Source: Vibrio hyugaensis (GTDB taxonomy: Bacteria > Pseudomonadota > Gammaproteobacteria > Enterobacterales > Vibrionaceae). Taken from it: a DNA stretch of 64,000 bases. The stretch lies in contig NZ_CP025794.1 in the NCBI RefSeq assembly GCF_002906655.1, positions 62,001 through 126,000 of the forward strand. Reading direction: 5' to 3'. Shown here one piece after another: positions 26,514 to 45,719 of the stretch. Position 1 is the first letter of the stretch; each line of letters begins with the position of its first letter. The notes below the pieces were generated by a model. It was not told the origin of the DNA. It ran no database searches and saw nothing but the letters and a program-made list of their open reading frames with translations. The translations under genes and the position numbers were made by a program.

Positions 26514-27362
26514 ATGGAAACAAAACAAAAACAGGCTAATGTTTACCCTCTAAATATAGAGCTTCCTTCTCTAAAGTCTCTATTTATCGAAATGTATTTT
26601 GGTGACCAGTTATTGAGCACGGGCACCGCAACACTAATCTCCAACACTCATCAATCTCACTGTGCTTTAGTAACTAATAGACATAACGTTACAGGTAGAC
26701 ATCAAGAAACAGGAGAGTGTTTAAGCTCGACCCTGGGTGTTCCTGATAATATTGTTATTCATTTTCATCGACCTGAGGATGATATTGGGGACTGGATTAA
26801 GGTTAAGTTACCATTATATCGAGAGGACGGTTCTCCATTTTGGATTGAGCATCCCAAGTTAGGTGAAAAAGCTGATATTGTTGCTCTAAATCTAAACTGG
26901 GGTAGTGATGTGCTTAAATTACCGTACTATCTCCAGCTTGATCTTGACCGTGTTGGCATGGTTGTTAGTCCAGCAGAACCTGTGAGTGTAATTGGTTTCC
27001 CGTTTGGTATGTCTACAAGCGGAAAATTGCCTGTTTGGGCGACAGGGTTCTTAGCACAAGAACTAAGTTTGATCTCAGAAGACAATCCTGTATTTCTAAT
27101 TGACTGTCGAACGAGACAGGGTCAATCGGGTTCGCCAGTTATCGCTTTTAGAACGTCTGGTTACAGAACAATAAAAGATAACCGAATTAGTGCAAGTTTG
27201 TCGGGTAATGTTGCTTGGGAGTTTCTAGGAATTTATTCTGGTCGAGTAAACGCGCAATCAGATCTAGGTCGCGTTTGGCACGTATCCGCACTAGAAGAGC
27301 TATTGAATGCTGCTGAATATGATTATAACTCACGTAAGAAAATTAAAGAGACCGAGGAATAA
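26514..27362 (+). CDS. Cytoplasmic trypsin-like serine protease
   Basis: 282 residues, no signal peptide. The chymotrypsin-fold triad is readable: H57 in VTNRHNVTG, D121 in KADIVALNL and S205 in RQGQSGSPV. The Gly before the serine and the P after SGS are conserved. Without a signal sequence it should act inside the cell; proteases of this kind appear as effectors in some bacterial defence systems, but here there is no partner gene in the cassette. Confidence 0.85.
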   Translation: METKQKQANVYPLNIELPSLKSLFIEMYFGDQLLSTGTATLISNTHQSHCALVTNRHNVTGRHQETGECLSSTLGVPDNIVIHFHRPEDDIGDWIKVKLPLYREDGSPFWIEHPKLGEKADIVALNLNWGSDVLKLPYYLQLDLDRVGMVVSPAEPVSVIGFPFGMSTSGKLPVWATGFLAQELSLISEDNPVFLIDCRTRQGQSGSPVIAFRTSGYRTIKDNRISASLSGNVAWEFLGIYSGRVNAQSDLGRVWHVSALEELLNAAEYDYNSRKKIKETEE

Positions 27363-42030: not shown

Positions 42031-42669
42031 ATGAAGTGTGTATACTGCTGTAATGAGATTAAAGAAGAGGAGTTTGCGCGTGAGCACGTTCCTCCAAAGT
42101 CTTTCTTTAAGAAAGGTACCTCTAGTCTGATCACTATTCCCGCTTGTCGAGCCTGCAATAATAAAAAGTCATCAGATGACGAATTTGTTTTGAATATACT
42201 TTCTATGTCGGACCTAATTTCTATCAATCCTCAACATCAATTCCACATAGATAAAATGTTACGGGCAGTTAAGCGCCCGCAGAAAGTGGGTTTTATTAAA
42301 GAAGTAATGAGCTCTACTCATACAGCGATAACCCCTGAGGGATCGAAGAAAGCATTTACTTTTGACGAGAGTAAAGTTTCAGGTTGGGCAGGGATAAATG
42401 CTCAGGGCTTATTGGTTCATGAGGAGCACATAGAGCATTGTAATTACAAGCACTCTACTATCATGTTGAACCTACTTAAGGTTGAGCTTCCTGAAGAGAA
42501 GCAGTTACTTGAACAGATACTTTCATTTACTAAATCGACTCCAAGTAAACGCGTCGGCTATTCGGAGTTTGAGTATTGGATTCAAACTCAAGATGAGGGT
42601 TATGTTGTTATTCAATGCTTTTATCAGGAATTGTTCTTTTTAACGATGGTCGAGCGCTGCAAGATTTAG
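42031..42669 (+). CDS. HNH endonuclease-like protein
   Basis: 212 residues. The N-terminus has C3xxC6 zinc ligands, EHVPPKS (18-24) at the HNH first-histidine position, and PACRACNNKKSSDDE (37-51) with the second CxxC and the N of HNH. Stand-alone HNH proteins of this type are frequent in mobile and defence regions. The remaining 150 residues are unassigned. Confidence 0.8.
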   Translation: MKCVYCCNEIKEEEFAREHVPPKSFFKKGTSSLITIPACRACNNKKSSDDEFVLNILSMSDLISINPQHQFHIDKMLRAVKRPQKVGFIKEVMSSTHTAITPEGSKKAFTFDESKVSGWAGINAQGLLVHEEHIEHCNYKHSTIMLNLLKVELPEEKQLLEQILSFTKSTPSKRVGYSEFEYWIQTQDEGYVVIQCFYQELFFLTMVERCKI

Positions 42670-42671
42670 CC

Positions 42672-42791
42672 TAACAAATTGTTCAAGAGTGATTCGGCAC
42701 GCGTGGCATTTTTACTATGCGTTGATTTTAGTGGTTAAGGTGGTATGCGGAGGCTTAGGTATTGCGTGCCTCACACCTTAACAAGGCGTTA
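42672..42791 (+). repeat. attC site, T4
   Basis: 120 bp; 10-bp end match TTAGGCTAAA. Confidence 0.97.
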
Positions 42792-43218
42792 GTACGAGTT
42801 TGACATCAAAGGTCATCAGTTTTGGTGTTTATCTGTTTTGGCGCTCGAATTTACACCTTTCAGTTAGTGCCTTTCACGTTCTTTCCGGTGGCACTATATG
42901 CGAAGCGTTCGCTTTGATTTCACCGTTTACGGTTTCTAACTCTTAACCTATTTCTTTGGTGCTTCTTCATTTTCGTGGTGGCTTTTGAGAGAACCTTGGT
43001 TGTAATTGATGCTGTCTTCGGAGTACGAGGACCGAATCCTTTTCTAATTTGAAGCTAGTGAAAGAAGGGCAGTTCAGTGCGTTTTTCTTCTAGCCAACTT
43101 TCGTCTTCCAATCGGGGTAAAGTTTTGTAGCTGCCCGTCTCACTTCAGTGTTCAAAGCCTTCCATATCATGCCAGTTTTCAATATCTTGGAGCGCATAAA
43201 TAGAAATAGCGCATGTAC
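42792..43218. other. ORF-less cassette family A, copy 6
   Basis: 427-bp body; start reads GTACGAGTTTGACATC. The middle (GTTGTAATTGATGCTGTCTTCGG) differs from other copies. No gene. Confidence 0.85.
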
Positions 43219-43338
43219 TAACAAATTGCTTAAGAGTGATTCGTAACGCGTGGCATTTTTACTATGCGGTGGCTTATGTGATTAAGGCGCTGTGCGGTAG
43301 CTTTTGTATTGCGTTACTCACACCTTAGCAAGGCGTTA
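43219..43338 (+). repeat. attC site, T7
   Basis: 120 bp; closes A copy 6. Confidence 0.97.
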
Positions 43339-43371
43339 TGTTTTTGAGCCGAAATTCGTACAAATTTCAAA

Positions 43372-43400
43372 TTGATAACTGTATTTATAAACAGTATCAT
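43372..43400 (+). promoter_or_regulatory. Predicted sigma-70 promoter containing a LexA box
   Basis: TTGATA (43372-43377), 17-bp spacer, TATCAT (43395-43400), about 30 bases before the ATG at 43430. The spacer is almost filled by the LexA-type box, so a bound repressor would block RNA polymerase. Confidence 0.75.
43379..43394 (+). promoter_or_regulatory. LexA (SOS) box
   Basis: CTGTATTTATAAACAG is a perfect CTGT-N8-ACAG with an AT-rich centre and a flanking TA on the right, the gammaproteobacterial LexA operator. It predicts DNA-damage induction of the downstream gene. Confidence 0.78.
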
Positions 43401-43429
43401 TTCTCTTTAATCCTTTAAAGTGATACAAA

Positions 43430-43705
43430 ATGAAGTTAATTATTGGTGATTTGGAGTTTTCCATCGGTGGAATCAGAGTTACATCTCAGCAGCGATTTTC
43501 TGCGACATACCAGTTATGGGGAATCGACGATGTTTTAGTTCAATGGGCTGAAAATGCATTGCTTTCTAAATCTGAATTTAATCTAGAGATTGTTAATGGT
43601 TCAGATGTTGTTCTAATCGGAGAGCATTGTCTCTTTAATAGACCCGATCGCCTAAATAGAAGTACGGATTTAATCGTTAACTGGGTAGAAAAATCCTTAA
43701 TCTAA
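43430..43705 (+). CDS. Hypothetical protein, predicted SOS-controlled
   Basis: 91 residues, mostly beta (KLIIGDLEFSIGGIRVTS..., then FNLEIVNGSDVVLIGEH), soluble, unknown family. A weak AAAGTGA precedes the ATG. Its own promoter carries a LexA box, so it is probably made after DNA damage. A small damage-induced protein could be a toxin, inhibitor or repair factor; sequence alone does not say. Confidence 0.75.
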   Translation: MKLIIGDLEFSIGGIRVTSQQRFSATYQLWGIDDVLVQWAENALLSKSEFNLEIVNGSDVVLIGEHCLFNRPDRLNRSTDLIVNWVEKSLI

Positions 43706-43722
43706 TGCTGATAAAATAAACA

Positions 43723-43844
43723 TAACAAAGCATTTAAGAGTGATTCCCAACGCTTGGCATTATTCATTCCATCGTTGGGTTTCGTGTTTACGGTGGTCTG
43801 GTTAAGTTTCGTGGTAGCGTTGCTCACACCTTAATGCGGCGTTA
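43723..43844 (+). repeat. attC site, T2
   Basis: 122 bp; closes the LexA-box cassette, 8-bp end match TTATGTTT. Confidence 0.97.
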
Positions 43845-43871
43845 GCCGTCATTGAATTCAGCAGGTATTAA

Positions 43872-44423
43872 ATGAAAATTGACTTAAGAAAGTCTCCGTT
43901 ACAAATGTTTAGTCGCCAGTTAGTGCGGTTAAAGTATGTACAACACATACAAAATGATCTGGATATCGAAACAACACATAAATTTAATAGCAAAATTAGA
44001 TATTTAAACCAAACTTACGTGTTTCATTTGGTTGCGTATTGGCAAGATTTTGTTGAGTCTCTCGTGCGTCGAAAACTAGCGGATATCACGCCAGATTGTG
44101 GGGCTGATCCTTTAGATGATTCACTTCCTCAGAATGTCGAAAATAAACTGAGATGGTTTAATACTCCTAATACAAAAAATATTGACCAATTACTTAAAGA
44201 TACTCTCGGGTTAACGGAGGCTACGACTTGTTGGAATTCTGAAGGTCTTTCACGTGATGAAGCAAAGGAAAGGCTTGATGGGATCTTATTGTCTCGGCAT
44301 CAAATAGCACATACAGGAGTGACTTCAAAAAAATTGAGCTATGAATCAAACTTTGGAGACATGGAGTTTATTTTTCAGTTAGCTACTCATCTTCAAAAAG
44401 CAGTTGATGAGCACATAGTCTAA
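43872..44423 (+). CDS. RiboL-PSP-HEPN-like protein
   Basis: 183 residues, helical. LSRHQIAHTG supplies the HEPN Rx4H motif (R142-H147), preceded by ERLDGILL, and upstream YVFHLVAYWQDFVESLVRRKL plus FNTPNTKNIDQLLKDTLGL fit the RiboL-PSP-HEPN family. These are predicted RNases of toxin or defence systems. There is no partner gene in the cassette. Confidence 0.8.
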   Translation: MKIDLRKSPLQMFSRQLVRLKYVQHIQNDLDIETTHKFNSKIRYLNQTYVFHLVAYWQDFVESLVRRKLADITPDCGADPLDDSLPQNVENKLRWFNTPNTKNIDQLLKDTLGLTEATTCWNSEGLSRDEAKERLDGILLSRHQIAHTGVTSKKLSYESNFGDMEFIFQLATHLQKAVDEHIV

Positions 44424-44433
44424 AAGTGTCGGC

Positions 44434-44553
44434 TAACAAACTGTTTAAGAGTGATTCGCAACGCGTGGCATTTTTACTATGCGTTGGTTTTAGTGTTTAA
44501 GGTGGTATGCGGCACCTTCGGTATTGCGTCGCTCACACCTTAACAGGGCGTTA
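44434..44553 (+). repeat. attC site, T1
   Basis: 120 bp; inner stem GCGTCGCTCAC differs by one base from most T1 sites. Confidence 0.97.
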
Positions 44554-44980
44554 GTACGGGTTTGACATCAAAGGTCATAAGTTTTGGTGTTTATCTGTTT
44601 TGGCGCTCGTCTTTACACCTTTCAGTTAGTGCCTTTAACGTTCTTTCCGGTGGCACTATATGCGGAGTGTTCGCTTTGATTTCACCGTTTACGGTTTCTA
44701 ACTCTTAGCCTATTTCTTTGGCGCTTTTTCGCTTCCGCTGTACTTCCTAAGTGAATCCTATCTTTCTTTGAGTGTTGCCATCAAAGTGCGAGGATCGAAT
44801 CCTTTTCTAATTTGAAATTTGCAAAGTAGGGCAGCTCAGTGCGTTTTTCTTCAAGCCAACTTCCGTCTTTCAATCGGGGCAAAGTTTTGTAGCTGCCCGT
44901 CTCACTTCAGTGTTCAAGTCCTTTCATATCATGCTACTTTTCAATATCTTGGAGCGCACAAATAGAAGTAGCGCATGTAC
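44554..44980. other. ORF-less cassette family A, copy 7
   Basis: 427-bp body with the same middle variant as copy 1 (TGTTGCCATCAAAGTGCGAGG). No gene. Confidence 0.85.
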
Positions 44981-45173: not shown

Positions 45174-45719
45174 ATGAAAAAGTTTTTGACGAAAAGTGCA
45201 GTATTATTAGCTGTGATATCACCTATCGCTTATTCTGCTGACAATACTAATCTTGCGGAAGTTATGTTGTCTTCGCCTTTGGATGACTCACGAGGCTATT
45301 GCTTGGATATCGCTGGCGGAAAAGGATCGAATGCACCAGTAGAAAGAGGATTGCAGGCACATACTTGTTATAACTACACCGGTGAAATACTCGAAGATCA
45401 AGGCTTTGAGGTTTCTCTAATCTCATCAGGTAGCTTTAAAATTTCATATTTCGACGTTTGTATGTCTGCATCGGCTATCGAGGCAGGAGCTTCACTTGAC
45501 CTAGAAGAGTGTAAGGCTTCTGACAATCAAAGCTTTTCTTTGAAGGGTAATGGTCAAATTTCTCCTAATAGCAATCCAAGCCTGTGTATTACTGTCGATA
45601 GTGAAAATAAAAGAGAGGGTCGTGGTGGCTCACCAGTTCATGTGATGAGACCAGTATCTTTACAGCTATGTGACAATAGTGAAAGTGATTATCAGCACTG
45701 GATAATCAAGTCCTTATAA
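45174..45719 (+). CDS. Secreted ricin-type beta-trefoil lectin-like protein
   Basis: 181 residues. Signal peptide 1-22 (ends AYSA-DN). The mature part fits one beta-trefoil: SRGYCLDIAGG, VCMSASAIEAGASLDLEEC and CITVDSENKREG repeats and a closing QLCDN...YQHWIIK with the QxW motif. Six or more cysteines could form disulfides outside the cell. It probably binds glycans. AGAGGTAAAGT precedes the ATG. Confidence 0.82.
   Translation: MKKFLTKSAVLLAVISPIAYSADNTNLAEVMLSSPLDDSRGYCLDIAGGKGSNAPVERGLQAHTCYNYTGEILEDQGFEVSLISSGSFKISYFDVCMSASAIEAGASLDLEECKASDNQSFSLKGNGQISPNSNPSLCITVDSENKREGRGGSPVHVMRPVSLQLCDNSESDYQHWIIKSL

Follow-up and report, generated by a model that had tools for sequence, protein, structure and literature searches.

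Can a cassette stored in a Vibrio superintegron carry, along with its gene, a promoter that is switched on by DNA damage? The question is raised by a locus of Vibrio hyugaensis for which a preliminary description had proposed that a cassette gene is transcribed from a promoter of its own under LexA control. The window analysed here, a stretch of 64,000 nucleotides to which all coordinates without a contig name refer, corresponds to C1:62001-126000 of a genome that comprises two contigs and 5.61 Mb, and its relatives and cassette matches are from Vibrio. The genome harbors 172 attC-end-like sites, all of them on the plus strand, and the gene of interest, 91 codons long, lies about 60 kb into the superintegron array, in the same orientation as the array. 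The cassette itself spans positions 43336..43841 of the plus strand and is bounded by attC sites on both sides, its borders being set by a cut between the G and the TT of the two GTTA boxes, which we take to be the cut position. On the left, it begins at the 3' end of the attC of the preceding cassette (TAACAAA...GGCGTTA, 43219..43338, plus strand), and its own attC follows at 43723..43844 (plus strand). Both attC sites were read in the sequence; the folding test supports the downstream one only, with a z value of -2.36 for its folded bottom strand, the bottom strand of the preceding attC folding no better than shuffles (z 0.15). The organization is that of an integron gene cassette, with one gene plus attC, a flanking attC, and an array accompanied by an integrase gene. 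No plasmid record contained 80% of the whole cassette, and among 20 of 209 records listed the query coverage was at most 26%, mostly at the attC end. Elsewhere in the array, a neighboring cassette (42031-42669) encodes an HNH protein (HNH_5) with a weak match to PtuB (E 6.3e-7), and a cassette protein encoded at 45174-45719 carries a ricin-type beta-trefoil lectin domain and, as judged by eye, an apparent signal peptide.

The gene occupies 43430..43705 of the plus strand (ATG at 43430, stop codon at 43703-43705), and its ribosome-binding site appears weak by eye. Its codon score is 0.216, compared with 0.084-0.365 (median 0.175) for 27 array genes, and none of 135 wrong frames reached this value, so the frame is probably a real gene. 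The preliminary description had called the 91-residue gene unknown, and its product is an orphan in all searches. No family was found in Pfam, NCBIfam, PHROGs or PADLOC; among 5.8 billion proteins the only match was the protein itself, in 3 contigs; 195 other Vibrio genomes gave no match; no relative was confirmed in GTDB contigs or viral contigs; and none was found among PDB sequences. A single-sequence AlphaFold model was unusable, with a mean pLDDT of 36.8. A toxin-antitoxin cassette was also considered and set aside, as there is a single ORF with coding bias and no match to any family. Most likely, the protein is a small effector that is useful during damage.

The protein might also matter little, the cassette acting mainly as a damage-inducible promoter for the cassettes downstream. 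The first of these encodes a protein of the HEPN RiboL-PSP family (43872..44423, plus strand; PF18735, E 2.3e-7), the terminator-like sites listed include none between 43705 and 43872, and gene-less Vibrio cassettes are described as serving downstream cassettes as promoters in the available part of PMC11014356. Such a role nevertheless accounts poorly for a 91-codon frame that lies directly behind the promoter, occupies most of the cassette and has the codon bias of a real gene, and we regard it as unlikely.

The reading that the cassette holds a LexA-controlled gene begins with its candidate operator, CTGTATTTATAAACAG (43379..43394, plus strand), an exact CTGT-N8-ACAG box. All elements of the preliminary description are at their places, the box lying inside TTGATA-17-TATCAT, 35 bp ahead of the 91-residue gene. 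The perfection of the box had been offered as an argument, and by itself it is too weak: the bare motif occurs twice in the window, as often as in 20 of 100 shuffles, and at 74 places in the genome, compared with 53 for a backward control, so that an exact box alone proves little. The other exact site of the window, at 27104, scores 5.5 with the matrix described below, and the bare motif was rejected as standalone evidence.

A more demanding measure comes from the genome itself. At C1:2334890 it encodes a LexA protein (TIGR00498 match of 268 bits), and a box lies directly 5' of this gene. An operator matrix was built from eight boxes of the genome. Two of these stand ahead of recN, and one each ahead of lexA, recA, sulA, imuA, a GNAT gene and a 71-aa ORF; family models identified lexA and recA, a Pfam match the GNAT gene, and inspection by eye recN, sulA and imuA. 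With this matrix, which favors exact sites because its boxes were picked from exact-motif sites but does not include CTGTATTTATAAACAG, the cassette box scores 24.06 over core and flanks and fits the motif of the host LexA. This is above the recA, lexA, recN, sulA and imuA boxes of the genome: the leave-one-out scores of the eight matrix boxes are 24.9, 22.6, 21.9, 21.7, 21.3, 19.6, 17.1 (recA) and 13.0 (lexA), and only the first of them exceeds the cassette box, which ranks second among the 30 exact sites scored of the 74 in the genome. In AT-rich DNA, a resemblance to a LexA box can arise by chance, as the frequency of the bare motif and the 14 exact sites within long open frames (>450 bases) of the genome illustrate, and the gene would then not be LexA-regulated. 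Yet those 14 sites all score at most 16.6, the second-best site in the 141,701 bases of the array reaches only 13.7, and none of 40 simulated arrays (first-order Markov) attained 24.06. Chance is thereby made very improbable, all the more as the box stands in register with a -35 and a -10 hexamer. Palindromic operators within promoters are common, and the palindrome could in principle belong to another repressor with a LexA-like motif, for example one of a mobile element; this is the least credible of the alternatives considered, given that both half-sites, the core and the flanks match the SOS boxes of the genome, and that no second gene was seen in the cassette as a possible repressor.

Other LexA-like boxes of the genome were recorded alongside. 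The top score among the exact boxes scored (24.9) belongs to the 71-aa ORF (L007:1455-1667, near C1 position 195454), whose product has no match in Pfam or NCBIfam. The xerD gene (TIGR02225, 378.9 bits; L016:512-1426, minus strand) has a LexA-like box, CTGTAAATATAAACAG, at C1:1691240, 14 bp ahead of its start and with a score of 17.3; xerD is absent from the available section of the V. cholerae SOS table (PMC5963079 Table 1). Two further boxes of fair score, at C1:1241669 (16.8) and C2:1524546 (15.1), have no ORF longer than 60 codons listed close downstream.

The promoter scan placed the -35 hexamer TTGATA at 43372..43377 and the -10 hexamer TATCAT at 43395..43400, both on the plus strand. 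Together they match 10 of 12 consensus bases, and their 17-bp spacer is filled by the LexA box, the operator thus overlapping the promoter as in LexA (SOS) regulons. This is the sole promoter-like pair in 42600-44600; shuffles of the region contain 5.1 on average, so its presence alone is ordinary. When 4000 stretches of 36 nt were drawn at random from the window, 5 contained an equally good pair. LexA bound at SOS promoters blocks RNA polymerase, and LexA bound at the cassette promoter would be expected to do the same. In undamaged cells, the gene, driven by its own sigma-70 promoter, would be kept shut by LexA occupying the box between the -35 and -10 hexamers, in the style of the recA promoter. 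Upon DNA damage, RecA filaments would form and LexA would cleave itself, after which RNA polymerase would start near 43407 on the plus strand, 7 bases past the -10 hexamer, and transcribe the 91-residue gene, with read-through perhaps reaching the HEPN cassette downstream. Resemblance and function do not always coincide: several LexA-like sequences near promoters of V. cholerae are reported, in the part of PMC5963079 available, to lack LexA binding, and a LexA-like site at intI2 is described as not functional, with no SOS control, in the corresponding part of PMC8876359. We consider it likely that this superintegron cassette gene has its own LexA-repressed, damage-inducible sigma-70 promoter. 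The central proposal of the preliminary description is, to this extent, well supported by the sequence, through the score of the box and the promoter in register with it.

That description had also drawn a link to recombination: integron integrases being SOS-controlled in vibrios, expression of the gene would coincide exactly with cassette shuffling. The general premise stands. As far as the sections at hand go, V. cholerae intIA belongs to the SOS regulon and mitomycin C raises its expression 14.4-fold (PMC5963079 Table 1), LexA boxes were found at intI in all Vibrio species then sequenced (PMC3108266), and integrase regulation is mentioned in a description of the Vibrio SOS regulon (PMC3323433). 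Its application to this genome is unsupported. The intIA gene (C1:44413-45360, minus strand; 507 bits against a cut-off of 265) has an open frame, but the box upstream of it (C1 near 45380), CTGTACAAATACCCAT, scores 7.2 and has one half-site destroyed, so that SOS control of intIA is doubtful in this V. hyugaensis genome. Eleven other genomes contributed 13 integrase loci, whose best upstream scores lie between 0.3 and 26.2; at 8 of these loci the score is at least 13.

Whether the cassette is a solitary case was addressed in 227 Vibrio genomes. A first search combined the attC end GGCGTTA, a gap of 20-50 bases and CTGTNTNNNNANACAG; it returned 18 matches in 18 genomes, compared with 4 for a backward control (own count). 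Eight of the 18 are attC cassettes, including that of the 91-codon gene. The others encode a glyoxalase (L041), a lipoprotein recognized by eye (L044, where the contig end truncates the upstream attC), a GNAT acetyltransferase (L051), a DUF6500 protein (L052) and, in three cases, an alpha/beta hydrolase (L053, L057 and L058, the upstream attC of L057 being less typical). Among the matches that are not cassettes, L048 and L054 are lexA itself, L042 is umuD-like by eye, and L043, L045, L046, L047, L050, L055 and L056 have no attC by eye, the box lying within a long open frame in 6 of these 7. A second search of the same genomes with a gap of 51-81 bases gave 9 matches (control 1), two of which were read: L065 has no attC, and L060 is an attC cassette encoding a Kiwa system. 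In total, 8 further attC cassettes of the 227 genomes carry a LexA-type box ahead of their gene. From the 9207 attC-end-like sites of these genomes, 0.30 boxes would be expected by chance in the first gap class, an estimate that uses the base composition of the V. hyugaensis genome and allows one mismatch in the attC ends; 8 cassettes of 6 families were observed (Poisson 1.3e-9 and 7.9e-7, respectively). The pattern was chosen after the 91-codon-gene cassette had been seen, and without that one, 5 families against 0.30 give about 1.6e-5 (calculated by hand). None of the 8 other cassettes has a convincing sigma-70 pair at its box: the 5-9 of 12 promoter bases found there are ordinary for random stretches, which counts against LexA control.

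How such cassettes acquire their boxes seems to differ from one to another. The alpha/beta hydrolase was found at 17 loci in 16 of the 227 genomes, and 10 of the 17 have a box scoring at least 16.6 at -64 to -73, the remaining 7 having no box. Three of the box-bearing loci lie directly behind an attC end (L068, L069 and L072, which are the three hydrolase cassettes), and the other 7 have no attC end within 250 bases. Between L068 and L069 the core of the box differs and both half-sites are kept. For the GNAT protein, whose gene in the V. hyugaensis genome (L021) is also box-bearing, 46 matches were obtained in 44 of the 227 genomes; 30 loci were fetched, and 26 of them have a box scoring at least 15. 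Four GNAT loci have attC marks on both sides, namely L100, where the box is intact, and L102, L103 and L104, where attC marks rather than a whole attC were seen and one half-site is changed (14.3, 17.3 and 17.3, respectively); in these three, the LexA switch seems to be decaying. Since hydrolase and GNAT relatives outside arrays bear boxes, operators can travel with captured genes, and some box cassettes would be SOS genes captured with their operator. The Kiwa cassette presents another picture. In Vibrio G141, a complete Kiwa system (L060:82-1500, minus strand; KwaA E 1.1e-75, KwaB E 2.7e-123) forms one cassette with attC on both sides and a LexA box just 5' of kwaA. Outside Vibrio, none of 22 kwaA relatives, all of them close, has a box (best score 6.3), so Kiwa as a generally LexA-controlled system is unsupported and the L060 cassette seems to have gained its box.

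These comparisons suggest, tentatively and with somewhat less than even confidence, that LexA-switched cassettes form a small class that recurs in Vibrio integrons. Its members would be either SOS genes taken up together with their operator (GNAT, hydrolase) or unrelated cargo that gained one (Kiwa, the 91-codon orphan), and cassette exchange would rewire the SOS regulon strain by strain. In V. cholerae, the superintegron of which extends from VCA0291 to VCA0506 (PMC11551772, available part), intIA is the only entry of the SOS table within the superintegron, and toxin-antitoxin cassettes whose expression increases with mitomycin C are described as lacking direct LexA control (both from the accessible text of PMC5963079). 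The Pc promoter shows no mitomycin C or SOS induction there and is even 2.1-fold down, according to the part of PMC3948777 at hand. As damage does not induce Pc, a LexA operator within the cassette itself would allow expression in damaged cells regardless of where in the array the cassette sits. If so, such cassettes may lend their switch to neighboring ones, part of the SOS regulon would become mobile and strain-variable, and in L060 a phage-defence cassette would be tied to the damage signal. The available portions of PMC6557892 and PMC8946536 contain no LexA-controlled cassette gene, and no report of one, or of Kiwa with LexA or SOS, was recognized by title or abstract in the openly licensed literature, which does not prove absence.

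A close parallel to the cassette promoter is that of recA. The recA promoter of E. coli K-12 reads TTGATA-CTGTATGAGCATACAG-TATAAT and, as in the cassette, the box fills the spacer and the -10 hexamer directly follows ACAG; in the recA gene of the V. hyugaensis genome, the box is likewise directly followed by TATAAT. The cassette differs from the E. coli promoter by a spacer of 17 instead of 16 bp, by TATCAT instead of TATAAT, and by the unrelated gene that it serves. Cassettes with their own promoter include cmlA1, qnrVC1, Vibrio toxin-antitoxin cassettes and cassettes of V. rotiferianus DAT722, none of which is described as LexA-controlled in the accessible part of PMC8876359. By the same part of that source, qnrB is likewise an accessory gene that LexA represses at a promoter of its own, but it is tied to ISCR1 in complex class 1 integrons and is not described as an attC cassette. 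Finally, integrons are also described as carrying a LexA operator at the intIA and intI1 promoters (PMC3108266, PMC3948777, in their available sections). Whereas in these cases it is the recombinase that is controlled, in V. hyugaensis the stored cargo carries the box and the box of its own integrase is degenerate.
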